From Halobacterium hubeiense (lineage in GTDB: Archaea; Halobacteriota; Halobacteria; Halobacteriales; Halobacteriaceae): a DNA stretch of 64,000 nt. Each line of letters starts with the position of its first letter. Position 1 is the stretch's first letter. This document shows positions 10,328 to 64,000 of the stretch, piece after piece. The stretch covers positions 124,001 to 188,000 of the forward strand of contig NZ_LN831303.1 of NCBI RefSeq assembly GCF_001488575.1, in the 5' to 3' direction. The notes under the pieces are model-generated. The model saw only the letters and a program-made list of their open reading frames with translations, made no database searches and had not been told where the DNA came from. The position numbers were made by a program, and so were the translations under genes.

Positions 10328-10329
10328 AA

Positions 10330-10875: not shown

Positions 10876-13556
10876 AGTAGACGTGCCTCCACGCTCGTGT
10901 CAGGGATGACGACGCCGTCGGTGGCGTCGAAGTAGCCGTCATGCCGTCCCGGGCGCCCGTCGAGCACCAGCCGGTCGGTGTCGGGGAACAGCGGCTCGCA
11001 TGCAGCGAGCTTCTCCATCGTGTCGTCGTCGCCGGGGTAGACGGGGACGGAGACCTGCCAGTCCGCGGTCGACTCGACGAGGTCGTCCAGGTCGTCCCAC
11101 CGGTACTCGCCGAACGCTCGCCGGATCTCTTCGACGGTCTCGCGCTCATCGGCCGTTCTCGTCACGATCACGTCGACGGCGGGCCGCTCGTCGATGAGCG
11201 AGAGTCGCCCGAGCTGTTCGGCTTCTGCCCGCTCGAGGTACTCCACGTACTCGTCGGCACCGATGTCACGCCTATCGAGCAGGTCGAAGTAGTGTTCGAC
11301 GGCGTTTCGAGTAACGTCTGGCTCGGGCATCGGGTCACCGTCGTAGACCGTTGCCAGCGCTTGGCCAGTCAATTTGGTGAGGCTCTCTCCTCGACCGTAG
11401 ACCGCGCTTGCGGGCGTTGTCTCGCGGTTCGGCGGCGGCGCGAGCTGCCAGACTGTCACGCGCCCACGGTTGCGGTCGTATGACCGGTTACATCGACCCG
11501 CAGCCTGCACGAGGCTGTCCATCGGCGCGAAATCACGGATGACCTCGTCGAAGCTCACGTCGACGCCCGCCTCGACCAGCTGGGTGGAGACGAACAACAC
11601 TGGTTCACCCGCTTCGGCGAGGTCGGACGCCACGTCGATGAGGTGGCGTCGGTCACACGGCCGGTGGCGTGTCGTGAGGTGGACCAACAGCGGCTGCCCC
11701 GGTCGTCGTCGACGGACTGCATCGGCAAGCGTCCGCTCGGAGCGTATCGATTTGGTCGATCGGTCCGCGGCGGTGAGCAGTTCGTCGTACACCTCGTTGA
11801 TGTCCAGCGGTGCCGTTCTGTCGTCCACCGACTCGGCGAGCTCGCGCGCGCTGTCGATTGTGTTGCAGATCGCCAACACCGATTTACGGTCGTCGGCCCG
11901 GTTCGCGACGAGTTCGCCGGCTCGATCGTAGGGGAGTGCTGCTGACTCCGCGTCGTCGTTCATCTCACCCCCTGTCTCGTTCTGCCCGGGAAGCATCGCG
12001 ATCGCGGACGGGTGAAGCACGAAGTCGAGCCGGTCCAGCTCGTCGTAGTACGGATCAGGATCCGCGACAAGGGAGAACGGCTCTTGGTCGCCCGCAGACA
12101 GGAGTTCGGGCTGGGTGGCCGTCATGGCGATCACCGATGCACCGTACTCCTCGGTCAACAGTTCGACCAGTCGGTCCACGAGCGGCCACCACTCGAGCGG
12201 CAGCGCCTGCGGTTCGTCGAGAACTATCACGCTCCCGTACAGCGAGGGGAGCTTCATCGAGCGTGCGTTTGTCGGCCCGGCCAGACTCTCGAACAGCTGG
12301 ACGAACGTCGTCACGACCATCCCCGACCGCCAGCTCTCGCCGAGGAGGGCGGCGACGTTCTCGACGGCGTCGTCGGCGACTGATTCGGGCTCGCCCGGCG
12401 GCGAGACGAGGGTATCCGCGAGGTGGTGGTCGACGGTGAGCCGTTCGCCTCTGTCGTCGGTCTCGAACAGTTCGCGGCTCTGCTCGGCCACCTGGTCGAT
12501 GATGGACGTGTACGGCAGCGCGTAGACGAGACGTCCCCCGTTCGGGTTCGACGCCATCTCACTCTCCTCGAGCACGGTTAAGGCGGCGTCCAGTCCAGTG
12601 AGGGTCTTCCCCATGCCCGTCGGGAGCGTCAGCGTCGCGACGTTCCGGTCGTCGTCGACGAACTCTTTGGCGCGAGTGTGAACTGCCTGTCGAGCGTCCT
12701 CGCGCCGCTCGTTCATCTGTTCCGTTCGGGGGTCCAGCTCTGTCTCAGCGTTCGCAGTCTGGAGTTCGTCGATGTAGTTGTCGATCGCCCGCCGCTCGGG
12801 GATCGGCGATCGGTAGGCCTCGCGGCCGATTTCGACACCAGTCGACAGGTACGTCGCGCTCGCCTTGTCGGCGAAGACGAGCGCGCTCCAGACCTGCAGC
12901 ACTGATTCGTAGAACCCTGACGGGAGCTTCTCCGGTGCCGGGCGAAGTCGCCGGCCACTACAGACGGCTTCCGCCACCCACGGGAGCTCGATAGCTGTAT
13001 CTGACTCGTCGAGCCGTTCGTGAAACGTTTCCCAGTCGCCACCGCTATTGGTCGCTTGGTCGACGAGTATCTCGGCAAGTTCAGGAACGGTCTCGTTAAG
13101 GTGTGCTGCCTGTTCGAGCGCATCAGATCGATAGAGCGTCTGGACCCGTCCTGACTGCTCGACGCTCGCCCGGTGCACGTAGTCGGCCGTATCGGGGAGG
13201 CGTCCGTGGTGTCTCGCGACGGCTAGAAAGCCGACGAGAGGATCGGCACCGTCGAACCCGCGTGCCTCCAGCGCGTAGTGAGCAAGCAGCGCCGAGATCG
13301 GCGCGTGATGTTTCGGTCCGTCCGGTTGTGCGTCGTCCGAGAGGAGGTGTTCGCGGAACCAAGAAGTCAGCTTCCCGAAATCGTGGACTTGCGCCACCAC
13401 TCCTGCCAACTCAGCAAGCGAGTTCCCCGCCGGCGTCTCGGCGTCGTCGGGGACGAGCCATCCGACCCGCTCGCGGATGTCGTCGAGATGCTTTTCGAGC
13501 GGGATCTGTTCCCCATTCGGTCCGATGTGTGACGGTCGGTCGGTAAACTCGGCCAT
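10872..13556 (-). CDS. cas3: Cas3 HD nuclease-helicase
   Basis: An 894-residue protein with the HD nuclease domain first (KHL near residue 23, VHDFGK at 57-62, HHAPISALLAHY), followed by a superfamily 2 helicase. Walker A is LPTGMGKT (near 312), the DEAD-like box is VLDEPQALP (near 445), motif III is MTATQPE and motif VI is QAAGRCNR. Cas3 is recruited by Cascade bound to a target and degrades the DNA. Fused HD-helicase order and length are normal for haloarchaeal I-B. Confidence 0.97.
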   Translation of the reverse strand: MAEFTDRPSHIGPNGEQIPLEKHLDDIRERVGWLVPDDAETPAGNSLAELAGVVAQVHDFGKLTSWFREHLLSDDAQPDGPKHHAPISALLAHYALEARGFDGADPLVGFLAVARHHGRLPDTADYVHRASVEQSGRVQTLYRSDALEQAAHLNETVPELAEILVDQATNSGGDWETFHERLDESDTAIELPWVAEAVCSGRRLRPAPEKLPSGFYESVLQVWSALVFADKASATYLSTGVEIGREAYRSPIPERRAIDNYIDELQTANAETELDPRTEQMNERREDARQAVHTRAKEFVDDDRNVATLTLPTGMGKTLTGLDAALTVLEESEMASNPNGGRLVYALPYTSIIDQVAEQSRELFETDDRGERLTVDHHLADTLVSPPGEPESVADDAVENVAALLGESWRSGMVVTTFVQLFESLAGPTNARSMKLPSLYGSVIVLDEPQALPLEWWPLVDRLVELLTEEYGASVIAMTATQPELLSAGDQEPFSLVADPDPYYDELDRLDFVLHPSAIAMLPGQNETGGEMNDDAESAALPYDRAGELVANRADDRKSVLAICNTIDSARELAESVDDRTAPLDINEVYDELLTAADRSTKSIRSERTLADAVRRRRPGQPLLVHLTTRHRPCDRRHLIDVASDLAEAGEPVLFVSTQLVEAGVDVSFDEVIRDFAPMDSLVQAAGRCNRSYDRNRGRVTVWQLAPPPNRETTPASAVYGRGESLTKLTGQALATVYDGDPMPEPDVTRNAVEHYFDLLDRRDIGADEYVEYLERAEAEQLGRLSLIDERPAVDVIVTRTADERETVEEIRRAFGEYRWDDLDDLVESTADWQVSVPVYPGDDDTMEKLAACEPLFPDTDRLVLDGRPGRHDGYFDATDGVVIPDTSVEARLL

Positions 13557-13575
13557 GGCTACGCCCCCTCGCGGC

Positions 13576-14370
13576 TCACGAGAACATCACCCGTCTGCCG
13601 TCGACCTCGTGGGTCTCGACGTCCTGCACCCGGAGTGGCTCCGCCCCGGTTGCGTACGCGACCGACTGGAACGCCGTCGTCGTCCGGCCCCCCTCGTCGG
13701 CCGCCATGAACGCCGGCGAGCGTTCGACTTTGACCTCCGTCTCAGGGGTGAGTTCGACGCTGTCGACTGCCTCGAGCACTGCCGAATCGACGTCGGTCGT
13801 CTCGCGCTCACGCGGCGTTACCTCGAACTCACCGAGATACGTGACTTCCGCGAGATGCTCCGAGAGGCCGAGACTCGGCGGGTAGTAGGACGTCCCGTCG
13901 CGGAGCCGGTCCTGTAGTCGATCCCGGAGATCGTCGTTCGCCAGCCGGAGATCCACGCGGTAGGCCGGCTCGACGAGCACCTCGTAGTTGTGTTGTTGGC
14001 GGAGCTCCGACGGATCAGGCATCGAGATCCGTGCATGCCCGCGGCTGGGCATCGTCATCATGTGTTCCTTGGCCGTCGAGAGCGTGTTCATCGGCATGTT
14101 GATCGTGCGGAGCTCGGCGATCGGCTCCACCGCGACCGCCGACACGTCCTGACCGAACGCTTCGTAGTAGCTGTCGCGGTCCAGCCCGAGCATCGCGGCG
14201 ACGAGGCCGGCGAGGGTCGTCCGGGGGATGATCCGATAGGTCTGTTTGACGATGTTCCCTTCGACCCGTCGGAAGTGACCCCACTCCCCGCGGAGTTCGA
14301 AGGAGAGACACGTCTCCGGGAGCTGGTCGTCCTCGTCGGTCCAGCTCTCGAGTGACTCTTGGGCCATCAC
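13576..14370 (-). CDS. cas5: Cascade subunit Cas5 (type I-B)
   Basis: A 264-residue RAMP protein. The N-terminal region has the Cas5 pattern SFELRGEWGHFRR, followed by TYRIIPRTTLAGLVAAMLGL. Cas5 caps the 5' handle of the crRNA and contacts Cas8b and Cas7. The gene overlaps the cas7 stop by a few bases and ends 19 bp before cas3. Two consecutive Met codons open the frame; the second would give nearly the same protein. Confidence 0.94.
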   Translation of the reverse strand: MMAQESLESWTDEDDQLPETCLSFELRGEWGHFRRVEGNIVKQTYRIIPRTTLAGLVAAMLGLDRDSYYEAFGQDVSAVAVEPIAELRTINMPMNTLSTAKEHMMTMPSRGHARISMPDPSELRQQHNYEVLVEPAYRVDLRLANDDLRDRLQDRLRDGTSYYPPSLGLSEHLAEVTYLGEFEVTPRERETTDVDSAVLEAVDSVELTPETEVKVERSPAFMAADEGGRTTTAFQSVAYATGAEPLRVQDVETHEVDGRRVMFS

Positions 14371-15485
14371 TCGGGCATCGTCGCAGCGGCTTCGTCGTAG
14401 ACGTCGACGACCTCGACCGCGTCGCCGACAGCCTCGCGGAGCGCGTCGTAGAAGCCGTGTTCGCCGGCCTCGTCGCCTGCCGTGTAGACCTCGTCGCCGA
14501 CGGTCACGTCGAGCACGTCGCTGGCGACGACACGAACGCGGGCGATACGGTCGGCGTGGCGGCCCAGCCGGGAGATGAGATCGCTCCCGTCGAGCGTGAA
14601 CTCCCGGACGTTCCGGAGTTCGTCGACAGGGGCCGAGCGCTCTTCGTCGATGTCGAGGTCACGGGTGAGGCCACCGAGATGGAAGCTCTCGTCTTCGTAC
14701 TCCACACGGAGGTAGAGTCGTGGCTCTTGGCCGACCTTGCTCCGGCTGATGGTCTGGTTCTTGATCGCGCGCCACGGGAGGGTGTCGAGGCGCTCCACGT
14801 CCGCCTCGGAGAGCTTCGTGTCGGCGGCACCGTTCTCGTCGACCAATCCGTGGAACGCGATGAAGCCGTACTGGATTCGGTGGTCGTCGAGGTCGAACCC
14901 ACCCTGCTCTTTCCCCTCACCAGTCGCGATGACGCTCGTGAGACTGTTGTACTCCTCGTTCTCCGTTACGGGATGGAGCGTCTTCGCGGGCGAGAACTGG
15001 ACCGGCCCGGTGAAGTGGTCCGGAAGGTAGTCTTCGAACCCCTCGTAGTTCCCCTTCATGTCGACACTCATCGTCGCACCGAAATACCGCACGTCGGCGC
15101 TTGCGTCGAGGAACGTGCCGAACACTTCCTCGCGGAGCTCGGCTGCCTCATCGTCGTCCAGATCGCTGAGGTCCCAGTCGTCCGGGTCTAGTTCACGCAT
15201 CCGGTCGGCGAGGAGGTCCTCCCGCGAGGACTGCTTGCCCGCCTCGTTTTTCACGTTCCGGACGTAGACCCCATGGCCGTCGTCGTCGAGCTGGTCGCGA
15301 AGGTAACGCTTCAGCCGGACGTCCGTCACGATTGCTTGTTGGGTTTCGGGATCGATTCGCGGGCGGTTCGCCCCACTCAGAGGGTTGCCGTTGGGGTTGG
15401 CGTCGACGGCGTCGTAGCAGAAGACGATCTCGGATCGGTTCGTCACGGGGTCGTAGCTGTCGTCAGCGTATGTGTCGTCAGTCAT
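14367..15485 (-). CDS. cas7: Cascade backbone Cas7 (Csh2)
   Basis: 372 residues. It begins with a strand typical of the Csh2 family (RSEIVFCYDAVDANPNGNP) and contains the characteristic RPRIDPETQQAIVTDVRLKR segment. Multiple copies polymerise along the crRNA spacer. It overlaps cas8b and cas5 by 4 bp each, so the operon is tightly coupled. The C-terminal tail is acidic, as expected for a halophile. Confidence 0.95.
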   Translation of the reverse strand: MTDDTYADDSYDPVTNRSEIVFCYDAVDANPNGNPLSGANRPRIDPETQQAIVTDVRLKRYLRDQLDDDGHGVYVRNVKNEAGKQSSREDLLADRMRELDPDDWDLSDLDDDEAAELREEVFGTFLDASADVRYFGATMSVDMKGNYEGFEDYLPDHFTGPVQFSPAKTLHPVTENEEYNSLTSVIATGEGKEQGGFDLDDHRIQYGFIAFHGLVDENGAADTKLSEADVERLDTLPWRAIKNQTISRSKVGQEPRLYLRVEYEDESFHLGGLTRDLDIDEERSAPVDELRNVREFTLDGSDLISRLGRHADRIARVRVVASDVLDVTVGDEVYTAGDEAGEHGFYDALREAVGDAVEVVDVYDEAAATMPE

Positions 15486-17629
15486 GCTTCTTCCTCCGCA
15501 GTTTCGGGCTGGTCGTCGGCCTGTTCGTCGTCGCTGCTCGCCCAGTTGTTCATTCCGTAGGCGACTCCGAGCGAGTAGTAGAATCGGAGATCGGTCGTGT
15601 CGAGCTCCCAGTCGCCGTCGATGTCGATCTGGGGGAGCGTCGTCACCAGCCGATCGACGACCTCGCGGTACATTGTCCCCGCCATGTTGTTCTCCCGGGA
15701 GTAGACGACGTTCTTATCGAGCACGTCGCTCGCGAGACGCTTTAGCTTCGACTCCGTGACGGCCTTGATCGGGTACTGGTCGATGAGCGTCGTCGAGCGT
15801 CCCTCGCTCACCTGCTGGTAGCCGGTCACTTGGCCGACCAGTACGCCGAGGAGGAAACTGCCACGCCGTTCGGGCTGATCCGCCGCGAGAGCGGGTGTCT
15901 GTTCAAGGAACTGTTCGAGCTTCGTCTCCCGGGCCGCGGCGACGTTCCCGCCGTCGGCTCGGGCTGGTGTGTCCTGTTGCATATCGTCTGTATGATCGTG
16001 TGTCAACTGCCGCGGCTCTGCGACCGGTTCGTACGCGTCGCGTCCGGTGAGAAGCCCCGCTTCGGCGAGCGCACAGAGCTGTGCGTACTGTGCGGAGACA
16101 CGGAAGCTCGGGAACTCCTCGCCCTCGTCCTCGAGCAATCGTTCCACGTACTCTGTGAGCACCTTCTCGACATCGAGCGGCTCGCTCGAGAGTACAGCCA
16201 CGAGCGCACGGATTCGGTAGTCGTCGGCGCTTGCGTCGTCGTCATCGGCCGGCGCGAACGTCTGTTCGAAGTACCAGCCAGTTGCAAGGATGCTCAGCAA
16301 TGCCGACTCCTCCGGAACGAAGATGTCCCAGTTGTCCGGTGTCGGGAACGCGGCTCGAAGCCCCGGATCGGGGTGGTCGACGTCACCTTCCGCGTCGTAC
16401 AGCCACGACCGAAGTACCCGCTGGTGGGCTCTGGTGAGCTCGACGGGTGAGAACAGCGTTCCGTCCATGCTGTCGCCGAACACGTCGAAGCGCTTCGTCT
16501 GGTGTTCCATCACCGCGGCGACGTAGAACCGGAAGCGTTCTCCCGCTTCCTGCAGTCGCGGGGTGTCCTGATAGCTTCGATAGGCGCTCTCGAGCGGACT
16601 CATCTCTCCGGCGTGTACCAGGTCGTAGAGAAGTCCGTAGAGGTCCCTCGCGTCTGCCGGATCGAGCCGCCCGAAGAAGTACGGAAGGTAGTAGATGTTC
16701 GCTCCCATCGTGTAGTAGTCGCAGGCGTCGACGAACGTACTCGCGTTCATCAGCGTCACTGCAACGTCTTCCGAGACTGGGTGCGTCCGCCATGCCTCGT
16801 CCGGATCGAACCCGGGGAATTTCTCGAGCTGCTTGCCGAGGAAGTAGTTCAGCGGATCTTCAGCCGTCCCGACGGTCGGGCCTCGGCTACCGGTCACGAG
16901 ATCGGTCGCCTCACCCACGGAGTTCGTGGCTTCACCCTTTGAGACGAGCTTCGATCGCTTGCGCGCCCGCATTGCTTCGTTGAACACCGAACTCGCCTCA
17001 CCCGGGAGGAGATACTCACCGTCAGAATCGAGTTTGACTGCGACAGTCGTGAGCGCCGTGGTCTTCCCGTCGAGCTGTTCGTCGACGGCCGTCTCGATGC
17101 GCTCTCTAAGCCCCTCACTCTCGCCGAGTGCAGCGAGTGCGTCGACGATCCACCTGTCTTCGTGATCGGCGGCAGCCTCTTGGATCACGTCGTCGGCAGC
17201 CCACGAAGTGAGTCGCTCGTGGAGATACTCCGCGACCTTTTCGGGCTCTTTGCTCTTGCCCGTTCGGTGGGTGACGCTATGGTCGAACCCACGCGCGGAG
17301 TCGTACCACGAGTGGGCAACCGCCTCGACTTTCCCCTTACCGTAGCTCTCGACGCCGACTGGCTGGTCAGGGTCCAAGCGGGGCTCGTTCCCACTCAGAT
17401 CGATGCGGAGATAGAGTAGGCTCTCCGGTTCATCGAACAGGTCCGTGGATTTCTCCGGCGTCAGGTAGGCCGCGTATTCGCCACCCCCCGCGGTCGCAAG
17501 CGTGTACAGACGGCCGTAGACGTACTGGAGGTCGCGGAGTGAGGTGATCGGCCGGTCCGGGAGTTCACTTGCCAGTTCCTCGTCGTCATAGTCATTCTCG
17601 AACGTCGACGGCTCCGGGAGCAGGCTCAT
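15482..17629 (-). CDS. cas8b: Cascade large subunit Cas8b (Csh1)
   Basis: A 715-residue protein in the fixed position between cas6 and cas7 of haloarchaeal I-B operons. Family-like features are the N-terminal LRDLQYVYGRLYTLATAGGGEYAAY block and a C-terminal YYSLGVAYGMNNWASS segment. Cas8b recognises the PAM and helps unwind the target. No zinc finger is obvious. Assignment rests on position, length and the overall pattern rather than on a catalytic motif. Confidence 0.92.
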   Translation of the reverse strand: MSLLPEPSTFENDYDDEELASELPDRPITSLRDLQYVYGRLYTLATAGGGEYAAYLTPEKSTDLFDEPESLLYLRIDLSGNEPRLDPDQPVGVESYGKGKVEAVAHSWYDSARGFDHSVTHRTGKSKEPEKVAEYLHERLTSWAADDVIQEAAADHEDRWIVDALAALGESEGLRERIETAVDEQLDGKTTALTTVAVKLDSDGEYLLPGEASSVFNEAMRARKRSKLVSKGEATNSVGEATDLVTGSRGPTVGTAEDPLNYFLGKQLEKFPGFDPDEAWRTHPVSEDVAVTLMNASTFVDACDYYTMGANIYYLPYFFGRLDPADARDLYGLLYDLVHAGEMSPLESAYRSYQDTPRLQEAGERFRFYVAAVMEHQTKRFDVFGDSMDGTLFSPVELTRAHQRVLRSWLYDAEGDVDHPDPGLRAAFPTPDNWDIFVPEESALLSILATGWYFEQTFAPADDDDASADDYRIRALVAVLSSEPLDVEKVLTEYVERLLEDEGEEFPSFRVSAQYAQLCALAEAGLLTGRDAYEPVAEPRQLTHDHTDDMQQDTPARADGGNVAAARETKLEQFLEQTPALAADQPERRGSFLLGVLVGQVTGYQQVSEGRSTTLIDQYPIKAVTESKLKRLASDVLDKNVVYSRENNMAGTMYREVVDRLVTTLPQIDIDGDWELDTTDLRFYYSLGVAYGMNNWASSDDEQADDQPETAEEEA

Positions 17630-18432
17630 CCATGGACCTCCGCCGCTGGTTTGCCGTACGGGTTGCGCTTTTCGACCAGGTTACAGAATCCCAGCCCCAG
17701 CGCGTTTCGTTCCCCGAGCCCGCAGTCCAGTGCGAGGTTGAGGTGGCGTCGATGGTCGTCGTCTCGGACGGTATAGTCGAACTGCCACTTCGAGAGTACG
17801 AAGGTCAGCTCCTGATCTGCGGTCACTTGGAGCGGGACGGCGAACGTCTTCAGTAGCTCGTACCCCTCGAAGAGATCACCCTCAGTGTCGCTTGGGCCCG
17901 GAAGGTAGTCCGGGCTGAATAGATCGTGTTTCTGGTCGAGATTCGCCTCGAGCTGCTCTCGCAGTGGCTCGATTGTATGTTCTGGCTGCCAATACACCGC
18001 CTCTTCGCCGGGGTTCTCAATTCCATAATCGTCACAACGCCATGGTGGGATGCGCACGAGGAGTCCAGTGCCAGTCTCGATCGTCCCGCTGCTCCCAGGT
18101 TCGCCGACATCCGGTGACAGTGACGTGAGTTCGTCGATATGGAACGGCATCTGGCCGATATTGAGCTCGCGATCGGCGGTCAGGTCTTCTGCAACATCGG
18201 CCAGTAATTGCTCTTGCGGGGCCGAAATCAGCAGAGTTCGCTCGTCTCCTTCCTGCATATCTCCCGGCGGGAAGGGGTTACTGTAATTGAATCCCGGTGG
18301 GCGGTTTTCGTCATGATACTGTTCGTACTCCGTGCCCTGCAACGCTTGCCAGATCCTACCTCGGAGCTTGGGGTGATACGCGTTGTCGTATGCGGTATCA
18401 GCCCGCGCGTGTAACCGTACTAGTAATCTCAC
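17626..18432 (-). CDS. cas6: crRNA-processing endoribonuclease Cas6
   Basis: 268 residues from a GTG start (MRLLVRLHARADTAYDNAYH). The C-terminal glycine-rich loop CGLGERNALGLGFCN is the RNA-binding signature of Cas6 RAMP proteins, and a His in the N-terminal third (near EYEQYHDEN) is a candidate catalytic residue by analogy with Haloferax Cas6. It should cut both repeat families to leave 8-nt handles. First gene of the operon; a TATA-like CCTAAATCG lies about 20 bp upstream of the start. Confidence 0.93.
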   Translation of the reverse strand: MRLLVRLHARADTAYDNAYHPKLRGRIWQALQGTEYEQYHDENRPPGFNYSNPFPPGDMQEGDERTLLISAPQEQLLADVAEDLTADRELNIGQMPFHIDELTSLSPDVGEPGSSGTIETGTGLLVRIPPWRCDDYGIENPGEEAVYWQPEHTIEPLREQLEANLDQKHDLFSPDYLPGPSDTEGDLFEGYELLKTFAVPLQVTADQELTFVLSKWQFDYTVRDDDHRRHLNLALDCGLGERNALGLGFCNLVEKRNPYGKPAAEVHG

Positions 18433-19639: not shown

Positions 19640-19739
19640 CTTCATCGACCCCTAGGGGGTTCAGGGTGAATTACGGGTTGACGAAAACACCGAAGTATGT
19701 ATGGCCTGTAGCACCGCTGAGTGCCCCGTATGGGGCATG
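19640..19739 (+). promoter_or_regulatory. Leader of CRISPR array 3
   Basis: Reading toward the array, this segment shows TCGACCCCTAGGGGGTT, then TTACGGGTTGACGAAAAC, then GAAGTATGTATGG, and ends GGGGCATG directly against the first repeat. The same blocks appear in the same order and spacing in the array 1 leader on the opposite strand. The array therefore retains a leader and could still be transcribed and adapted. Confidence 0.75.
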
Positions 19740-19970
19740 GTTACATCAGAACGCTAGTGCGGTTGAAGCGTCGGATTGGTCTCGACCTCGACCGCGAACG
19801 GCGGCTCGTTACATCAGAACGCTAGTGCGGTTGAAGCCAGATTGGCGACCCCGTGATGGACGCCGCGCAAGGCCGTTACATCAGAACGCTAGTGCGGTTG
19901 AAGCCCCCGCCAGCGCCATCGCCGCTCCCGTCTCCGGGTAGTTACATCAGAACGCTAGTGCGGTTGAAGT
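19740..19970 (+). CRISPR. CRISPR array 3: four repeats, three spacers
   Basis: Repeats lie at 19740-19769, 19808-19837, 19875-19904 and 19941-19970, and spacers are 38, 37 and 36 bp. The repeat begins GTTACATCAGAACGC and ends GCGGTTGAAGC. It differs from the array 2 repeat by one base (CATC for CAGC), and the last copy ends in T. Transcription is rightward, opposite to arrays 1 and 2. The cas operon therefore has an array on each side, as in several haloarchaea. Confidence 0.93.
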
Positions 19971-40460: not shown

Positions 40461-40632
40461 CCTCAGCACAGCGTAGTCGAGATTCTTCGACAGGGATACC
40501 AACCAGCCGGTCAACCCACTCTGTAGTAGCCAGATCTCCTCGCTAATCGATAGACTGCGGGCCGTCTGTGACGTTCCCAAGCCAACGTAACCAAATTACT
40601 ATAAGATGTGGAGGTTTCGACGAAAAGAGATG

Positions 40633-43233
40633 GTCCGGCATACGCAGACCTGGATGTTCAACATCACGCCAGAGAACTGGGAACAGTGCGTGAGTGGTCC
40701 TGAAGATCCAGAAATCCACGGCGAGGAGCACGTTGGCGTACCCGTTCAGGGAGTGCGAAGTGATGCACCAGCGCCCACAGAGGACATCCAAGAAGGAGAT
40801 TTAGTCCTTGCTCGGAAGAAGAGTCACGGTGTTGGAGGGCTCTGGGAAGTTGAATCGGTTGTCGATATCGGGGACGACCAAGCACGGAGCCTGTGGGACG
40901 ATGCAGACTATTCGGAGATAATCTACTGTCGTCCGATTCAACTAGAAATCAATCCTCTGTATGAGGAAGACTGGTCCTCATTCGAGGAAGAACTTGGCGA
41001 ATCAGTCCAGACGGTGACAGCCAATATTATGGGCGCTGTCCACAATCTGAAGCCGGAATATAAACGTCAATATCTCACTGAGCTCAGCAATCATTCTGGG
41101 GTCGATGCAACGGCAAAAAGCCGAATCGACCAAGAACTCTCGAGTGATGAACAACCGGTGAGACGGACACTTCCTGATGGAGTGGAAGCATGGTTCATGA
41201 ATCCAGATGACCAGTGGGATGTTGCAACCAAATACGACATCACCGTCACTGGTTGGGAAGCTGTAAACGACGTTGACTTGGCCGATGAGAGTGAGTCAGA
41301 TATTCGCAGTCACTTCGAGGATGGGCAAACTACCCCACGAACGCTCCTTGATTTCCGGGATAACCTTCCGACAGGTTCGATACTTGTTGCTACGAGTGGA
41401 GTGAACAAGGTGTACGGCTTAGGTGTTGTAACGGGGCCGTATCAGCGAAGGGAACTTCCCGAACTTCGGTCGAGCGATAACTACCACACGCGACCCGTCC
41501 GATGGCTTGTCGACATCCATGCTGAACATGGTTCGGCATTCGAATTAGATACCGAAGGTAGCGACCATCTTTCCGAGCGTCATTTCGGAATCGACACGGG
41601 TGTGAGATCGCTAGACGTGGAGGCATACACAGAAATCGCTGGACAGGTAATCGATAGCTATCCCTCGCTTGAGGCTGATTTTGACCGAGTTGAAGCTGCC
41701 GCAGAAGCGGTCACGATGCGGGAGTCTGACGAATTCGATACGTCATATTTCTGGGTGAATCAGTCGAAGCAGGATGAAATCGACGGTGAATATCTTGAAG
41801 CTCCCTATCCGAAGGACAGTTGGCAGCAAGACCTTGCCCGAATCTCTAAGGGCGATGTGATTATCCATAGGTCGAGCGAAGGGGAAGACGGTGAGATCGT
41901 CGGCTTATCGACCGCTCTTGGAGAGCGAGAGATTACCGATGAGGGAGACCACCAGCGGGTTTCAGTACTATTCGAGCCGTTTGATGAACCAATCCCGGCA
42001 GAGCCGGTCATCGATTACCTCAAAGATGATGATTTCATCGAGAACACATCTCATTACTTGATTAACAGGAACCACGAGCGAATGGCCGGCTATCTATTCA
42101 ATCTCCCTACAGAGGCTGCGAACGAAATATTGAGTGGTGACTTCACACGAGACACGTATGGAGACTACGGCGATTCCTTAGCAGTCCCAGAGTCAGATTA
42201 TACGGTTGAAAAGGGGCACCTCCACTACCCAGAGGAGGTTTGGGACAATATTCAAGATCGAATCCTCCAGGCTCTCGCGAATAACAACCATATTCTACTG
42301 TTCGGGCCACCGGGCACGGGAAAGACTAAGCTAGCTCGACAAATCTGTGAAGCAACCATCGGAGAGAACGGTTATAATCTCGTAACCGCTTCGGCGGATT
42401 GGTCGACATTCGATACTGTCGGTGGATATCAGACAACGATAGACAAGGGACTCGAATTCGAGCCTGGCGTCGTACTCGATCGCTTCCAGTCAGACGAGGA
42501 CGAAACCCCTACGAATGAATGGCTGATAATTGATGAACTCAACCGAGCAGACATCGACAAAGCCTTTGGATCATTATTCTCGGCGTTAACCGGTGAGAGC
42601 GTAACGCTACCTTTTGATGATTCTAATGGAGATTCTATTGAGATTCTCAGCGCAGATCGTGCTGATGAAGACATCGCTGAAAACCGATTCTACATACATG
42701 AGGACTGGCGGATGTTTGCGACGATGAACACCCTTGACAAGACGTCGTTATACGAGATGAGCTATGCGTTCATGCGACGTTGGGCATTTATCCCAGTCGG
42801 TGTCCCCGACCTTCCTGAACCAAATGACGAGGATTCCAGCACTAGTGAACTCGCTGATCGGGTCCAGTCATACGTCGAAGGATGGGCTAATCACGAAGAG
42901 TCGGAGTTGCCAGAAGCAGAACAGCACTACCGGCCGGTTGGTCGCATTTGGCGTGCAGTCAACGAGCAACGAACTATCGGGCCAGCCATCGTCGAAGATA
43001 TCTATAGATATGTGGCGGGCCAGTCATCTCCCCAGGCGTCAGACTACGTGTCACCGGTCATCATGTACGTATATCCCCAGCTCGAGGGACTACGTGGAGA
43101 CGCGCTCCAGGAAGTCATAGCATCTATCGAGACTGTAATCGAGGATATTGACGGGAATACGGATGAGCTGTGGACGGTCGCACGAGACTTCTTCCAGAAA
43201 CCCGAACTCCAGCGACCTGAGGACGAGGGGTGA
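40633..43233 (+). CDS. McrB-like AAA+ GTPase with multiple EVE-like reader domains
   Basis: About 866 residues from MVRHTQTWMFNITPENW. A CTATAAGA box about 30 bp upstream supports this ATG over one 9 codons earlier. Three PUA/EVE-like modules occupy residues 1-540: one opening WMFNITPENWEQC, one around AWFMNPDDQWD-LPTGSILVATSG, one around YFWVNQSKQDEI-GDVIIHRSS. The AAA+ motor has Walker A LLFGPPGTGKTKLA (near 557), Walker B WLIIDELNRADIDKAFG (near 632) and an MFATMNTLD sensor. McrB recognises modified bases and translocates DNA for its McrC nuclease, encoded 6 bp downstream. Three readers in one McrB is unusual. Confidence 0.85.
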   Translation, partial: VRHTQTWMFNITPENWEQCVSGPEDPEIHGEEHVGVPVQGVRSDAPAPTEDIQEGDLVLARKKSHGVGGLWEVESVVDIGDDQARSLWDDADYSEIIYCRPIQLEINPLYEEDWSSFEEELGESVQTVTANIMGAVHNLKPEYKRQYLTELSNHSGVDATAKSRIDQELSSDEQPVRRTLPDGVEAWFMNPDDQWDVATKYDITVTGWEAVNDVDLADESESDIRSHFEDGQTTPRTLLDFRDNLPTGSILVATSGVNKVYGLGVVTGPYQRRELPELRSSDNYHTRPVRWLVDIHAEHGSAFELDTEGSDHLSERHFGIDTGVRSLDVEAYTEIAGQVIDSYPSLEADFDRVEAAAEAVTMRESDEFDTSYFWVNQSKQDEIDGEYLEAPYPKDSWQQDLARISKGDVIIHRSSEGEDGEIVGLSTALGEREITDEGDHQRVSVLFEPFDEPIPAEPVIDYLKDDDFIENTSHYLINRNHERMAGYLFNLPTEAANEILSGDFTRDTYGDYGDSLAVPESDYTVEKGHLHYPEEVWDNIQDRILQALANNNHILLFGPPGTGKTKLARQICEATIGENGYNLVTASADWSTFDTVGGYQTTIDKGLEFEPGVVLDRFQSDEDETPTNEWLIIDELNRADIDKAFGSLFSALTGESVTLPFDDSNGDSIEILSADRADEDIAENRFYIHEDWRMFATMNTLDKTSLYEMSYAFMRRWAFIPVGVPDLPEPNDEDSSTSELADRVQSYVEGWANHEESELPEAEQHYRPVGRIWRAVNEQRTIGPAIVEDIYRYVAGQSSPQASDYVSPVIMYVYPQLEGLRGDALQEVIASIETVIEDIDGNTDELWTVARDFFQKPELQRPEDEG

Positions 43234-43239
43234 ATTCTG

Positions 43240-44625
43240 GTGCCGAAGGCTGACGAGGTGGAACTCCTCGAGGCTATCTCGGAGAACTTCCACACGTACC
43301 TACGGAAGGGCGTTCGATTCGACCGCGTTATCGGGTCAGCTCATCCCGAACTCGATATTGATGATATCGAGGCACTACTCCGAATCCACTTCGTACTCAC
43401 CGACTCGAGGGGCGACCCCGGAAACGTCGGTGTGATTGATTTCATGGAGACGTTGGAAGATCGTATCCGACGGATGAAGACTACGACGACCAGGGAATCT
43501 ACCGAACTGCGAGGAGAAATCCGGGGACACATAGACTGGCAGCAGACGACGAAGAGACGAGCCAGAAGTGGGCGTCTCGAAGAACCTATCTTCGTATGTA
43601 ATCAGCCAGAAGAGAACTACGATATCGACGAGAATCTCGTTTTGAAGCGGTTACTGGGCGTTATCTATGAGATTGTTTTCGAAGACCTAGAGCCGGTCAT
43701 CGAAAATCCGTCAGAATACGAGTGGATTGATACATGGACGAAAGCAGATGCCGATGGAGCAAGGCATGATACGGAATCTGCCCTCAGTCTACTTCGGCGA
43801 ATCTATGAACGGAATATCTACCTCCAGCAAATCGACGTCGATGATGTCGAGCTGACTCATCGGACTATTGAATCAGTCAAGCAATCCCGGTCAGAATTCT
43901 ATCGCGAAGCCGCGGATTTACTTGACCAGTTCCGTCAACTGATGAATCAGCAGTTGGATAGCGAGGAGGCGCGTTCTATCCTCGATAATACGATTATTTC
44001 CCCAGAGAAGACCGAGGTTCTATTCGAATTATACTGGATTTTTCGCATTCTTCAAGCGTATGAGAACGTCGAATACCAGGTACTCTCAGACTGGAGCGAA
44101 TCACCTTCCACGATTGCTACCTGGGAGAGCGATGACGCACGTTTCGTGCTTTCCCACGACAGTACTGGTGAAGGTCTTGCATTCAATGAAACTCCCGACG
44201 GTGAGACCATAGAACAAGACGGGTATCTCTACCGCATGAACGCCGTGTTGGACCAGTATCAAGATTTGTCACAACCGCTCCTCGGGCGTAACGCTCAGAA
44301 TTCATTATGGGGTGGCCAGCCAGACATCGTATTGGAAAAGTACTCATCTGACGAAACGGGTGAGCGAAAGCTCGATCAGGTGTTCGTTGGTGAGGTGAAG
44401 TACTCACGTGATATGGATTACATTGCTACGGGACTGAGAGAATTGTTGGAGTACATGGCCTTCGTTAGGTCTGAGTCAGGGGATTATGTTGAAGAAACAG
44501 AGGATGTACTCAACTCAGTCTCAGTAAAAGGCCTGTTGTTCGTTGACTCGCTGAACCAGGAGACATCGTCTACGGGAGATATCGATATCCTACAGTATGG
44601 CGAGAAAGTTCGCAAAGTACTGTGA
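43240..44625 (+). CDS. McrC-like PD-(D/E)XK nuclease subunit
   Basis: 461 residues from a GTG start 6 bp after the McrB-like gene. The C-terminal third shows the nuclease signature GGQPDIVLEKY (near 360) and VFVGEVKYSRDMDY (near 384), that is PD...ExK. The N-terminal part is helical and acidic, with QIDVDDVELTHRTIESVK. Position, partner and motif make it the cutting subunit of the McrBC-type system. N-terminal similarity to classical McrC is weak, so it may belong to a divergent branch. Confidence 0.82.
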   Translation: MPKADEVELLEAISENFHTYLRKGVRFDRVIGSAHPELDIDDIEALLRIHFVLTDSRGDPGNVGVIDFMETLEDRIRRMKTTTTRESTELRGEIRGHIDWQQTTKRRARSGRLEEPIFVCNQPEENYDIDENLVLKRLLGVIYEIVFEDLEPVIENPSEYEWIDTWTKADADGARHDTESALSLLRRIYERNIYLQQIDVDDVELTHRTIESVKQSRSEFYREAADLLDQFRQLMNQQLDSEEARSILDNTIISPEKTEVLFELYWIFRILQAYENVEYQVLSDWSESPSTIATWESDDARFVLSHDSTGEGLAFNETPDGETIEQDGYLYRMNAVLDQYQDLSQPLLGRNAQNSLWGGQPDIVLEKYSSDETGERKLDQVFVGEVKYSRDMDYIATGLRELLEYMAFVRSESGDYVEETEDVLNSVSVKGLLFVDSLNQETSSTGDIDILQYGEKVRKVL

Positions 44626-45969: not shown

Positions 45970-46227
45970 CTACGAGAGGGGTTGCAAGTCCCGGGATTCG
46001 AATTCAGTTTCAATCGCATCGTAGGATTTCACCCATTCTTTTGGGCCAAAATTGAAGCTGACATCTGCCGGCGGATCAGCTCCTAGTTTACCATCTATTT
46101 CTACGTAATAGACGCGAACCTCTTCTTCAGATTCGTCATTAATATAATAGTAGTCCCGATCTATGACTTTCCTATCGCCTTCTTCTTTGAGCCATCTTGC
46201 AACGCGGATTTGTCGGTCGGGAATCAT
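45970..46227 (-). CDS. Small acidic hypothetical protein
   Basis: About 85 residues from MIPDRQIRVARW. A longer frame to 46317 exists, but its extra N-terminus runs antisense to the region upstream of the next gene and looks non-coding. The sequence DRDYYYINDESEEEVRVYYVEIDG suggests a small beta-rich fold. No family recognised. It is divergent from the DUF4145-like gene. Confidence 0.55.
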   Translation of the reverse strand: MIPDRQIRVARWLKEEGDRKVIDRDYYYINDESEEEVRVYYVEIDGKLGADPPADVSFNFGPKEWVKSYDAIETEFESRDLQPLS

Positions 46228-46340
46228 ACACATCCACCTCAAGTTCGTGGTTATTGAATTTATTGGACCTATATTCGCCGAAGGAAAGTTCGAGACCATC
46301 TCCGGAAAAACTACCAAAGATAAATCAACAAAGTCTAAGC

Positions 46341-46964
46341 ATGGAATCAGAATATGTTCCCCCAGAGTTCAATGAAAATGCATTCAATTGCCCACATTGT
46401 GGAGCATATGCTAAACAAACATGGAGTAAAGCAACACATAACAACGTTATAACTGGATTTGTTACCTCAAGATGTGCAAAATGCGGCTCATACTCAATTT
46501 GGGCTGAGCAGAAACTACGATATCCAATTTCCTCGACAGCACCACGACCACATAACGAGATGCCTGAAGAGGTGGCGCGTGACTTCAACGAAGCACGTGA
46601 AATCGTCGACTCATCCCCACGTGCTGCGGCGGCCTTACTACGATTAGGTATCCAACGCCTCTTAGAGAATCATCTTGAGACACCAGGAAACGGCATAAAC
46701 AACGATATCGCACATTTGGTTGAAGACGGAAAAATAGGGAACCGAACTAAGAAGATGCTAGATGGCGTACGGATTACGGGGAATAATTCGGTTCATCCAG
46801 GAAGAATGGAAATGGATGATAATAGTGAGATGGCACATGCTCTTTTTAAGCTAACTAACTACATTGTAGATCAAACATTAGGGCGAGATAAGGAAGTCGA
46901 GGAGTTCTGGGAGTCACTACCGGAAGAAGACCGAGAAGGAGTTAGGAATCGAGACAGCAACTAG
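46341..46964 (+). CDS. Zinc-ribbon DUF4145-like protein
   Basis: 207 residues from MESEYVPPEFNENA. A zinc ribbon (CPHCGAYAKQ and CAKCGSYSIW) precedes a helical domain with the DUF4145 pattern: EVARDFNEAREIVDSSPRAA, then LLRLGIQRLLENH and a final NNSVHPGRMEM. This domain is often found in or beside restriction and defence genes, but its reaction is unknown. GC is lower than in neighbours and TATA-type boxes are weak. Confidence 0.78.
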   Translation: MESEYVPPEFNENAFNCPHCGAYAKQTWSKATHNNVITGFVTSRCAKCGSYSIWAEQKLRYPISSTAPRPHNEMPEEVARDFNEAREIVDSSPRAAAALLRLGIQRLLENHLETPGNGINNDIAHLVEDGKIGNRTKKMLDGVRITGNNSVHPGRMEMDDNSEMAHALFKLTNYIVDQTLGRDKEVEEFWESLPEEDREGVRNRDSN

Positions 46965-47060: not shown

Positions 47061-47241
47061 AAAGTGTTGAGTTGAAGTTGGTTTGGAGAGATGGCAAATA
47101 TTCAAGTATTCTAATCGTACCGAACATTTACATTGAAATAGTCTATTATTTATATGATATTGGATGTCAGACAGTGTTTAAGTCACTTGTCTCAGACCAG
47201 CTTCTGATTTTTCACCAGACTGCTACCAGAAACGGGAACAT

Positions 47242-48324
47242 ATGCTCGGGAATGCAATTGTATTGCCGCCAAGCATGTTTAAGGAGATGAATGTAGACCC
47301 GTACTGTTACATCCGAGCAAGATATGAGAATGGCGAGAGCGGAAAAATTCTCTATGCAATCCCCTTCTCAAGTGATTACAAGGGAGATTCAAAAGTTGTT
47401 GCAATAAGTACGAATTTGATGAAAGGGATTAATCCAGACCTTGAGGTTAAAGATAAGATCAAAATTGAACCAATAGATACACCCTGTTCAGACTCTCTCA
47501 CAGTCTATCGGCCATATTCAGATCCTTATCAGGGTGTTTGCTATTTGGATCCAGACGTGCTTTCTAAGATGAATATAGAAAAGGGGAACGAAGTTGAAGT
47601 ATACAATACGCAAACAGGCGGTCGAGTAAAACTCATCGCAGATACCTTGTTTGAGAGCGATCAGAATCCGGAGAAAGTTCGTATAGATCTCCATTCAAGA
47701 GATATACTTGATATAGACTTTGGAGAAACTGTGAGGGTACGGCCCGTAGTGGATGCTGATGATGAAAATAAAAGCACACTCATTCCTGGAGTTTTTGGTA
47801 AATTTCATGATAAGCTGCTAGAGTTCTTCGTTGGTTCCCGCCAGGTACTGCTAAGAGTGAAACAAGGGAATGATCAGGACGAATACAGGGGGATCATTAG
47901 AGTCAATGAATCTACTATGGGTTACCTAGGAGTAGAGGAGAACGACCGCCTGACAATTGAATGGAAAGGCAAAAAGGAATCCGTACAGTGTCTTCCCACA
48001 TCAGACGACGACACGGAACCACTCACAGTGCAGGTCCCCAGCACAATCCGTGACAACATTGAAGTAAGCAACTTTGATGGAGTTAATGTGCGGCGGGATA
48101 GATGGTATATTTTCCAAAAACAAATCTCAGTTTCACTCTTGGGGATTCTTGGTGTTGTATTTGGGACGTTCCAAATTGCCACGGTTACATCAATCTCTGG
48201 TATTCTTTTAGAAAAAGTAGGAATTATCGGGAACCTCTTGCTTTTGTTGGGTGTGTCTGCAGTGCTTTCCATCCCAGTTATTTGGTCCCTTCTTCTTCCA
48301 GTCCGAAGTGAGGTAAATAACTGA
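47242..48324 (+). CDS. Membrane-anchored protein with Cdc48-N/AbrB-like barrel repeats
   Basis: 360 residues, clearly lower GC than most neighbours. The soluble part holds about three related blocks, each with the pattern strand, short helix ending in a M-N-V/I-x-x-G-like turn, then an ExV strand: LPPSMFKEMNVDPYCYI, LDPDVLSKMNIEKGNEVEV and VNESTMGYLGVEENDRLTI. The second block continues VRIDLHSRDILDIDFGETVRVRP, very like the double-psi barrel of Cdc48/VAT N-domains. Two helices at the C-terminus (LLGILGVVFGTFQIATV and NLLLLLGVSAVLSIPVIW) place it in the membrane. No ATPase domain is present. Function unknown. Confidence 0.7.
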   Translation: MLGNAIVLPPSMFKEMNVDPYCYIRARYENGESGKILYAIPFSSDYKGDSKVVAISTNLMKGINPDLEVKDKIKIEPIDTPCSDSLTVYRPYSDPYQGVCYLDPDVLSKMNIEKGNEVEVYNTQTGGRVKLIADTLFESDQNPEKVRIDLHSRDILDIDFGETVRVRPVVDADDENKSTLIPGVFGKFHDKLLEFFVGSRQVLLRVKQGNDQDEYRGIIRVNESTMGYLGVEENDRLTIEWKGKKESVQCLPTSDDDTEPLTVQVPSTIRDNIEVSNFDGVNVRRDRWYIFQKQISVSLLGILGVVFGTFQIATVTSISGILLEKVGIIGNLLLLLGVSAVLSIPVIWSLLLPVRSEVNN

Positions 48325-48855: not shown

Positions 48856-50106
48856 ATGGACTATAGAACGATACCAGAATTAGAGGATTATTTTGATGGT
48901 GGAATTGAGACACCAAGGAGCGAGAAGCTGAAAGTTCTCGTGAACTATCTACGCGAGGTCTCTGAACTGATTGAAAACAGTCGTCTGTCAACAACTGACC
49001 CTGAATACATTGGTTATCTCAATAGGTACTGTTCGCAATCAAAGCACGTATCGCGGATTCACAGAAACGACCTACTAGAATTGTTAATTCCTGAGAGTGC
49101 AACTTCGTCGCCAATGGATTTGGGCGACTCTCCAATGGGACCTTTCCGCAGAGAGGTCATCTTTGGCGCGTTCTATATGTTAATCCGGGTTTCACTAGAT
49201 GGTACGGCTGACTTCTTCACCCTCAGACAAGATCTAACTGAGTTCGAACGAGAATTCTCTGATCGGCCGATTTATCAGTATCTACGTTCGGAAGTCTATC
49301 TTCGTGGGTTCAAGACCGACCACTACCGAACGGCGATCTCCTCTATTGACAGCATTATCGACGACTCTTGCACCAATCCACGATTCTACTCTAACTTTGC
49401 ACAGGGAGTGGCAGACTTCTACTACAGTGGTCCAACCGAATCCTTGAACATCAACACTCTACCAGAGGAACGTAGCGAAGTGCTATCTGTTGCCAAGGAA
49501 TATTCGCAGAAGGCTGTTACTCTCTCCCCTGACGATTCGGAGTTCCACGCAATCCGAAGTGAGATTTTAGAATTGATGGACGACTTTGAGACCGCAGAGA
49601 AGGAAATCAACAGGGCACTGGAATTGCACCCAGAGGAGGAGGATTCCGACGCTGGTGATGCGTACAACTACTATAAACAGTTGAACAGTCTGAGGGAGAC
49701 ACGACGAAACGCCGAACGTGCAGACAGGGCTCTTGAAGAAGCGAAGAGTGAATTAGAGGATTTCAAGAGTTCAACTGAAGAACTCGAGAACGAACTCAAG
49801 GAGCGAATGGAACGATTCCGAAATCAGACACTCCGCTCGATCGGCTTCTTCGCGGGCCTCATTGCAGTAGTAGTTACATCGGCACAGGCAATCCTGAGTA
49901 CGCTATCTGTCGCGGACGCAAGCCGGGTGTCTCTTGTATTGACTGGAGGATTAGTGGTCGCGTTTTCGGGACTCGGTGTTGTGTTATCGGAGGAAAGTAA
50001 CGACTGGGTGCGACTACTCGTCGTCGCTATTCTAGGCGTCTTACTCATCGGCGTGGGGCTTCTTACACCCCAGTTGGTTGACGGGACGGTTTCTATTCTG
50101 GGTTAA
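48856..50106 (+). CDS. TPR-like/coiled-coil protein with C-terminal membrane helices
   Basis: 416 residues. Residues 150-270 resemble tetratricopeptide repeats (YSQKAVTLSPDDSEFHAIRS, DFETAEKEINRALELHPEE). They are followed by a coiled coil (RALEEAKSELEDFKSSTEEL) and three hydrophobic helices (SIGFFAGLIAVVVTSAQAIL, VSLVLTGGLVVAFSGLGVVL, LLVVAILGVLLIGVGLLT). Large soluble-plus-membrane proteins of this sort are common in haloarchaeal accessory islands. It could be the effector or sensor of an undescribed defence function. No catalytic motif. Confidence 0.75.
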   Translation: MDYRTIPELEDYFDGGIETPRSEKLKVLVNYLREVSELIENSRLSTTDPEYIGYLNRYCSQSKHVSRIHRNDLLELLIPESATSSPMDLGDSPMGPFRREVIFGAFYMLIRVSLDGTADFFTLRQDLTEFEREFSDRPIYQYLRSEVYLRGFKTDHYRTAISSIDSIIDDSCTNPRFYSNFAQGVADFYYSGPTESLNINTLPEERSEVLSVAKEYSQKAVTLSPDDSEFHAIRSEILELMDDFETAEKEINRALELHPEEEDSDAGDAYNYYKQLNSLRETRRNAERADRALEEAKSELEDFKSSTEELENELKERMERFRNQTLRSIGFFAGLIAVVVTSAQAILSTLSVADASRVSLVLTGGLVVAFSGLGVVLSEESNDWVRLLVVAILGVLLIGVGLLTPQLVDGTVSILG

Positions 50107-61155: not shown

Positions 61156-64000
61156 TCTGCAACCGCTCTAGCGTTCTGCTGTAACCCAGCAACCGCCGCC
61201 CCCCAGCCCGTCACAGCATCCGCTTCAACCGCACTAGCGTTCTGCTGTAACGGTGCTGGAAGTGGGCGAGCGTGCGGACCTCGGGCTTCAACCGCACTAG
61301 CGTTCTGCTGTAACTGCCGCCGGCCGCTCAGGCCGCGAATACGGGTTCGGGCTTCAACCGCACTAGCGTTCTGCTGTAACGTGACTCCCCATGCGAGTTC
61401 TGCGCGCGAACGCGGCTTCAACCGCACTAGCGTTCTGCTGTAACACAGTTGCCTGCTTGTCGGCGCTGTCCCACCCGCGGCTTCAACCGCACTAGCGTTC
61501 TGCTGTAACGGTCGCGGTCGCCCGCAGCCTCGAAGTTCGGGGCGCTTCAACCGCACTAGCGTTCTGCTGTAACAACTGCTGGATGTGCTGCCTATCATCC
61601 CCGAATATGCTTCAACCGCACTAGCGTTCTGCTGTAACTGCCAGCGGGCGCCGTTGCGGCTTTCGAGGTCCGCTCTTCAACCGCACTAGCGTTCTGCTGT
61701 AACTAACGCGAATCATAACCCGCGTAGGGTCATAATCGCTTCAACCGCACTAGCGTTCTGCTGTAACTCGATCTGGTGTGCTTCGCCGTCGACGAGCTGA
61801 TAGCTTCAACCGCACTAGCGTTCTGCTGTAACCGCGCCGGAGAGATCTGCCACAGCTCCGAATCCTGGGTGCTTCAACCGCACTAGCGTTCTGCTGTAAC
61901 ACGTCGTTCTCGTTCCGCGAGCTGGACGCGGCTGCAGCTTCAACCGCACTAGCGTTCTGCTGTAACGCGGCGAACTCCGGCAGCTCCGTAGACTCACTCT
62001 CGCTTCAACCGCACTAGCGTTCTGCTGTAACGCTCCTCGAGTTCATTCAATGCGCGGTAAAGGGTAGCTTCAACCGCACTAGCGTTCTGCTGTAACGCCA
62101 CGACCGAGCCCCTTAGTCCTACCTTCGGAGAAGCTTCAACCGCACTAGCGTTCTGCTGTAACACGCCGATGGTTTCCGGCTTCGCAGGCAGGTACTTGCT
62201 TCAACCGCACTAGCGTTCTGCTGTAACGGCTGATTATAGCCGGATGTTTTTAGTCGGTACAGGCTTCAACCGCACTAGCGTTCTGCTGTAACTGCGGTTC
62301 TCCTGGGCGTCGCTCGACCGTAGCCATGCTTCAACCGCACTAGCGTTCTGCTGTAACCTTCGATTTCGTTTTCCCCATCGTCTGCCGTAACGCGCTTCAA
62401 CCGCACTAGCGTTCTGCTGTAACACGCGCCGGACTGAGGACGGCGCGCATCATCGCGGCGCTTCAACCGCACTAGCGTTCTGCTGTAACACCGCCATCGA
62501 GCCTGCCCTTGAGCGCGTATACCTCGCTTCAACCGCACTAGCGTTCTGCTGTAACGAGGCGAGGCAGTGGTTCTCGGACTTCAACCTCATCCCGCTTCAA
62601 CCGCACTAGCGTTCTGCTGTAACCGCCGGACGTCCAGATCGCGCCGGATGGCGTCCTCCCGCTTCAACCGCACTAGCGTTCTGCTGTAACGCGATGGCCT
62701 TCGAGACGGTCGGCCCCGACCTCCCGCTTCAACCGCACTAGCGTTCTGCTGTAACCGCGGACACGCCGCAATATACCTCCGACGTCATCGCTTCAACCGC
62801 ACTAGCGTTCTGCTGTAACTCGACGCGCCCCAGCTCCGCGCGTCGGGCGAGGGCTACGCTTCAACCGCACTAGCGTTCTGCTGTAACAAGGGGTGTCCGC
62901 GTATACGGTTAGGTAGAGGTTGCTTCAACCGCACTAGCGTTCTGCTGTAACGAGTTGCTGGTACTCCGATTTCACCTGTTGCTTCCGGCTTCAACCGCAC
63001 TAGCGTTCTGCTGTAACTACAGTCCGTTTCACCGATACCATTCACGTTCGACCGCTTCAACCGCACTAGCGTTCTGCTGTAACGACGTCGAGCAGCGCAT
63101 GAGCCAGCTCGGCGACGCGCTTCAACCGCACTAGCGTTCTGCTGTAACTGATTTGGGAACTCCAATACTCTGAGAGCGTTGGGTTGCTTCAACCGCACTA
63201 GCGTTCTGCTGTAACCTCTGGTAGAGCGCCGAGTGGATATTCGAGGAGTCGCTTCAACCGCACTAGCGTTCTGCTGTAACGCCCACGGAACTCAACACGC
63301 GTCCCACGCATCTCCTGCTTCAACCGCACTAGCGTTCTGCTGTAACAGGGGCCGCTGCGCGTGTCCAGCGGGCAGGTCCTGCTTCAACCGCACTAGCGTT
63401 CTGCTGTAACGAGTCTCCCTCCCACGCCTCGCGAGCCGCCCGGAGCGTCCCCGGGCCGCTTCAACCGCACTAGCGTTCTGCTGTAACCTCGCGGTCGACA
63501 TCGAGGACGGCGTGATTCCCGCTTCAACCGCACTAGCGTTCTGCTGTAACTACCCTCGTCAGTGTCCACAACACCCGACCAGCCGTTGCTTCAACCGCAC
63601 TAGCGTTCTGCTGTAACGTGGGCACGGTGACGTCGACGTCGCCCCGGCCGAACCGCTTCAACCGCACTAGCGTTCTGCTGTAACTTCGCCGCGACCCATT
63701 CGGCTTGTAGTAGGTCGCGGCTTCAACCGCACTAGCGTTCTGCTGTAACCGGGCGTCGTCTCCTACGCGCTCAGTCACACGGGCTTCAACCGCACTAGCG
63801 TTCTGCTGTAACAGTTCAAGCGACGGTTGCCCGGAGTCGTTCGGTTCCGTGCTTCAACCGCACTAGCGTTCTGCTGTAACGAGACGGTCTTCGTCACCGC
63901 GTCACCGCCCGCGCGCTGCTTCAACCGCACTAGCGTTCTGCTGTAACCACAACGACTCCCTCACGAACGCCAGCCTCGGATAGGCTTCAACCGCACTAGC
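61156..64000 (-). CRISPR. CRISPR array 2: 44 repeats visible, continues beyond the window
   Basis: 30-bp repeats (on the minus strand GTTACAGCAGAACGC...GCGGTTGAAGC) run from 61156 to the window edge; the last is cut at 64000. The leftmost repeat (61156-61185) is degenerate, and the copy at 61674 has one changed base, which marks the left side as the old, leader-distal end. The handle GTTGAAGC implies leftward transcription from a leader beyond 64000. Spacers are about 34-38 bp. The repeat differs from array 1 but is close to array 3, so one Cas6 probably handles all. Confidence 0.97.

Follow-up and report, generated by a model that had tools for sequence, protein, structure and literature searches.

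The double-psi beta-barrels that make up the N-terminal domain of Cdc48 and VAT (Pfam PF02359) are usually discussed as components of ATPase machines, in which known p97 adaptors use the cleft between the two halves of the N-domain. Tandem Cdc48-type N-domains within one protein are known from Pex1/Pex6 (PMC5070193). The membrane protein described herein, encoded in a 64,000-nucleotide stretch of Halobacterium hubeiense DNA (hereafter the window), possesses two barrels (barrels 2 and 3) belonging to the same sequence family as the Cdc48/VAT domain, and resembles Pex1/Pex6 in carrying such N-domains in tandem in a single protein. It differs from Cdc48/VAT in having neither the AAA modules nor the Nc half, with tandem barrels and a membrane anchor instead, and from Pex1/Pex6, whose N-domains stay on AAA ATPases and are associated with no such membrane helices or enzyme partner. 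The other relevant group is the gamma-glutamylcyclotransferase (GGCT)/ChaC/AIG2-like superfamily, with which the product of a gene recurring beside the barrel genes shares a YGSL motif, a conserved Glu and Tyr, and matches to NCBIfam ChaC and to the structure 2jqv, although this product is highly divergent and is paired or fused with the membrane barrel protein. Botch/ChaC1, a GGCT whose reported target is the membrane protein Notch (Chi et al., 2014, cited in PMC11554486), offers, by analogy only, a precedent for such an enzyme acting on the gamma-glutamyl modification of a membrane protein; the enzyme in that account is eukaryotic, and Notch is unrelated to the barrel protein.

The features of the window gene are listed below by position in the window.

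47168..47197, forward strand: QTVFKSLVSD, which may be left over from the original N-terminus, in a different frame
47176..47241, forward strand: in-frame stretch 5' of the ATG, matching the family N-terminus (SDFSPDCYQKREH), with a TAA at 47179-47181
47242..48324, forward strand: coding sequence of the barrel membrane protein, 360 aa from the ATG
47242..47478, forward strand: block 1 (residues 1-79), divergent, a tentative double-psi-barrel unit
47479..47751, forward strand: barrel 2 (residues 80-170), Cdc48-N type
47827..48111, forward strand: barrel 3 (residues 196-290), Cdc48-N type, carrying Cys250
48124..48180, forward strand: hydrophobic membrane helix 1 (approximately residues 295-313)
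48235..48291, forward strand: hydrophobic membrane helix 2 (approximately residues 332-350), after which the protein ends in PVRSEVNN

The Pfam model CDC48_N (PF02359) matched the window protein over two stretches with E = 8e-19 and 68.1 bits (curated cut-off, 35.1); taken as separate matches in a search of the protein's own genome, barrel 3 scored 41.1 bits, above the cut-off, and barrel 2 scored 30.8 bits, below it. Profile-profile comparison with genuine archaeal Cdc48 N-domains gave E = 1.3e-17 for barrel 3 and E = 2.9e-9 for barrel 2, whereas block 1, which is a feature of the three-block haloarchaeal subtype and is without its first strand when the window protein is read from the ATG, aligned in register but weakly (E = 0.027). 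The three double-psi barrel blocks proposed in the preliminary description are thus better counted as two firm barrels and one tentative unit. The two C-terminal membrane helices of that description were found in the window protein and in nearly all of its relatives, the low GC content was borne out (42.6% for the gene versus 57.2% for the whole window), and no AAA family appeared among the Pfam matches over the 360 aa, in agreement with the claimed absence of an ATPase. The Nc half (CDC48_2) was not among the Pfam matches of the window protein either, and since barrel 3 leads directly into the membrane helix (at approximately residue 295), there is no space for it. The proposed likeness to AbrB had to be given up: no specific similarity was detected, and kinship was discarded on the score of MazE/AbrB (PF04014; E = 0.0099, 16.3 bits versus a cut-off of 24.7). 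An AF2 model of the barrel protein built from a 3-sequence alignment (mean pLDDT 48.9) was too poor to use. As judged from its sequence, the description of the window protein as tandem Cdc48-N-type barrels with a membrane tether and without an ATPase appears largely right.

Relatives of the window protein were sought in several collections. Screening 392 genomes of the order with the protein yielded 10 relatives with 28-37% identity across the matched stretch. More members, three of them outside the haloarchaea, came from a profile search at class and phylum level, and a plasmid search gave one relative, from Haloarcula marina, annotated as a hypothetical protein. Viral contigs and phages yielded no relative, and a viral origin was discarded on that account. 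In total, 20 members beyond the window protein were found and 21 loci were examined, among which L016/L017, L019/L043/L044 and L014/L045 come from close species and are not independent. The family occurs sparsely among haloarchaea and still more rarely elsewhere in the Halobacteriota, and comprises two subtypes, the three-block type of the window and a two-barrel type (L024, L047, L048, L081, L082 and L100). No such family was described in the papers searched, and the barrel membrane proteins probably form an undescribed family. In the genome of the window copy, the CDC48_N search returned two Cdc48 ATPases of the ordinary type elsewhere (744- and 841-aa frames), the window protein twice, and a 305-aa paralogue (L024). 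One own-genome match, L002, was rejected as a member of the family as it sits at the N-domain of a true Cdc48 ATPase gene.

Among the three-block members, Cys250 of barrel 3 is kept in 14 of 15 and a C-terminal Cys, within an R-x-x-C motif after helix 2, in 13 of 15, against a background Cys frequency of 0.71%; such conserved cysteines would be compatible with a thiol link without proving one. The genes neighbouring the homologues, called by a home-made ORF picker from which small genes may escape, include Suf, DeoC, acyl-CoA dehydrogenase, geranylgeranyl-reductase-type and similar genes. The two-barrel member at L047 (7591-13750) lies near genes for Hsp70, a vWA-like protein, an M55 D-aminopeptidase and a cyclase-like protein, and the barrel gene at L018 starts at the end of a diaminopimelate epimerase gene.

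One neighbour recurs. A GGCT-like gene, encoding a small protein with the YGSL motif at its start, adjoins the barrel gene in 11 of the 21 loci, a fusion at L046 being counted. The two genes lie on the same strand and overlap by 19-22 bp at L015, L016, L017, L019, L043 and L044, overlap by 8 bp at L048, and are 1 bp apart at L081, outside the haloarchaea; at L021 and L023 they are convergent. At L046, a single open frame of 653 aa consists of an N-terminal GGCT-like part (approximately residues 1-225) followed by the barrels and membrane helices. That the two act jointly is strongly supported by this natural fusion and by the gene overlaps that recur in several lineages. Among 391 genomes, the barrel family was present in 16, the YGSL family in 15, and both in 9, where about 0.6 would be expected (Fisher p = 9.7e-11, in a test that takes genomes as independent, some being close relatives). 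The six remaining YGSL-family genes (L060-L065) represent a more distant haloarchaeal branch with no adjoining barrel gene, and nine of the 21 loci, including that of the window, have no recognisable GGCT-like neighbour. In the tree of the family, partner enzymes occur on both sides, so that the pairing may be old. Just upstream of the two-barrel member at L082, a gene at 478-1296 carries an AYGSN motif and aligned weakly with the GGCT-like profile in one hhalign comparison (E = 0.0018); it was left out of the GGCT-like counts for this reason and would possibly represent another GGCT subtype, distantly related, that fills the same role.

As for the identity of the partner, the GGCT-like family profile searched against the whole PDB found the AIG2-like protein 2jqv as its top match (E = 8.7e-4), and yeast glutathione-specific GGCT was weakly matched over the YGS region in the same search. 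The enzyme at L081, which matched the GGCT-like family profile with E = 5e-48, also matched NCBIfam GGCT/ChaC with E = 1.7e-7, under the curated cut-off of that model, and comparison of the GGCT-like profile with that of haloarchaeal GGACT (PF06094) gave E = 4e-4 at a probability of 34%. The GSL loop, a Glu (E111) and a Tyr (Y114), which are the residues expected in a functioning GGCT, were invariant among 12 aligned members. Since a Pfam search returned no family above cut-off for these proteins, the assignment rests on the NCBIfam, PDB profile and motif evidence, and the term GGCT-like is used as a superfamily assignment for a putative cyclotransferase. The AF2 model of the GGCT-like protein, computed from single-sequence input (mean pLDDT 30.3), was too poor to use.

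With a probability of about 0.5, we propose that the barrel proteins constitute an undescribed family of membrane-anchored tandem barrels having a GGCT-like enzyme as their usual partner and holding this enzyme at the membrane. The barrels would serve as a membrane-bound docking or substrate-presenting platform, anchored by the two C-terminal helices and keeping the enzyme on the cytosolic face of the membrane, the site at which a gamma-glutamyl group would be cyclised. We infer that the partners, when encoded separately, bind each other, and that the enzyme is active. Because the GGCT-like enzyme has no obvious export signal, the barrels are expected on the cytosolic side, the helices serving as anchors. 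Candidate substrates are gamma-glutamylcysteine and a gamma-glutamyl group carried by a protein at the membrane; gamma-glutamylcysteine, the main thiol of haloarchaea, in which it reaches approximately 4 mM (PMC7278568), is the obvious candidate. We also put forward, as a tentative and rather doubtful proposal, a new membrane-bound enzyme system of Halobacteriota in which a Cdc48-N-type platform with conserved cysteines positions a gamma-glutamylcyclotransferase at the membrane; there, gamma-glutamyl or gamma-glutamylcysteine groups might be removed from proteins in thiol-dependent signalling or repair. On the docking-platform reading, Cdc48-N barrels act in archaea as free-standing membrane platforms, tied by gene context and natural fusion to a GGCT-like enzyme. 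If this is true, the barrels gain a role outside protein unfolding, and a partner-bound gamma-glutamyl-processing enzyme would operate in organisms that rely on gamma-glutamylcysteine as their main thiol. Thanks to the fusion and the overlapping gene pairs, the reading is testable in laboratory haloarchaea.

The preliminary description had suggested that the window protein decoys or recruits the Cdc48/proteasome machinery, with the barrels binding Cdc48 substrates or adaptors at the membrane and thereby recruiting or titrating the host Cdc48/proteasome. Although barrel 3 is closest to archaeal Cdc48 N-domains and the genome has two Cdc48 ATPases, the adaptor cleft cannot form without the Nc half, for which there is no room, and the family showed no genomic association with genes for Cdc48, the proteasome or SAMP; the survey of homologues' neighbours called for in that description brought up the GGCT-like enzyme as the recurrent partner instead. 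These observations point away from a Cdc48 decoy, for which no evidence was seen beyond the kinship of the barrels and which we regard as highly improbable, and suggest instead a membrane-bound enzyme pair that is as yet undescribed. It is also conceivable that the barrel proteins are a membrane scaffold for interchangeable small enzymes, GGCT-like or GNAT depending on the lineage, that modify small molecules or protein termini at the membrane. GNAT genes of one family are found at L018, L020 and L022, immediately convergent with the barrel gene, and at L047, 2.7 kb away, and a different GNAT gene, divergently oriented, at L014 and L045, all six loci being without a GGCT-like gene. However, GNAT genes are so common that chance adjacency is not negligible, the three convergent cases form one clade, and no GNAT fusion was seen, which makes such a scaffold improbable; the GNAT genes beside partner-less members may represent a further type of partner or a chance association.

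The possibility of a defence function was considered from the surroundings of the window gene, whose nearest neighbours are the following.

46197..46964, forward strand: neighbour directly upstream, zinc ribbon plus DUF4145 (HEPN-clan), matched by PADLOC PD-T7-4 with E = 5.4e-74; not assigned to the barrel system
48856..50106, forward strand: downstream neighbour with weak TPR, a coiled coil and C-terminal hydrophobic segments; not assigned to the system

DUF4145 falls in the HEPN superfamily (PMC3710099), and genes for a PLD nuclease and an HNH endonuclease are also found around the window gene. The defence island of the preliminary description therefore stood as far as the window is concerned, with its neighbours of defence type (PD-T7-4, AAA/McrB-like, PLD and HNH), but did not extend to the homologues, which are mostly in metabolic surroundings, indicating that defence is not a trait of the family. 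A defence or toxin-antitoxin-like module, in which the GGCT-like enzyme would deplete an infected cell of its gamma-glutamylcysteine, with the membrane barrel protein as a sensor of this enzyme or a brake on it, could draw on the patchy distribution, on the position of the window copy amid defence-type genes, on the same-genome paralogue near apparent restriction-modification genes (as read by eye) and on the OLD-like nuclease gene adjoining L100. Nevertheless, with housekeeping neighbours at most loci, no PADLOC model matching the window barrel protein, and a cis fusion of enzyme and barrels that suits cooperation better than inhibition, we consider such a module unlikely, if marginally less so than the GNAT scaffold.

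The window copy itself departs from the family pattern. Searches for a GGCT-like gene came out empty both in its genome (at E <= 1e-5) and within the window, and the R-x-x-C motif is absent from its C-terminus. The family tree places it (support 74) with L014/L045, a Halobellus pair that is likewise partner-less. Family homology already starts 5' of the ATG, the family profile match running from 47176 and crossing the single TAA at 47179, and the QTVFKSLVSD remnant, which scored 5.62 against a shuffle 95th percentile of 5.38, hints at a 5' frameshift by lying in another frame. From these matches, the 5' end of the window copy is probably truncated or frameshifted; otherwise, a sequencing error or a true downstream start would account for it. 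The missing GGCT partner, the lost C-terminal Cys and the damaged or shortened N-terminus together indicate that the window copy is probably an orphan or decaying member. That it is a decaying pseudogene with no present function, as the 5' stop, likely frameshift, lost cysteine and partner-less genome might suggest, is a serious possibility that we nonetheless do not favour, because 360 codons are still open, neither the two firm barrels nor the membrane helices are disrupted, and a sequencing error or real downstream start may explain the 5' end; such decay would be compatible with any family-level explanation. Decay may be common among family members: at L021 (9141-10586) the frame stops within the last membrane helix and the profile match goes on beyond the TAG, and the Haloarcula marina plasmid copy (L022, 9526-10389) is without the first block.

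Elsewhere in the window, an AAA_5 ATPase gene (875 aa) and an adjoining gene of 461 aa, the latter without a clear Pfam match, form an McrBC-like arrangement at 40606-44625. CRISPR features are located at 5738-9000, 9335-18432, 19724-19970 and 61157-62490. They comprise a large array, in which a GCTTCAATCCCACGAGGGTACGTCTGAAAC-type repeat occurs 50 times or more, and downstream of it an apparent cas gene set (as read by eye). Additional arrays, at approximately 19.7 kb and 61-62.5 kb, are built on another repeat (GCTTCAACCGCACTAGCGTTCTGCTGTAAC).
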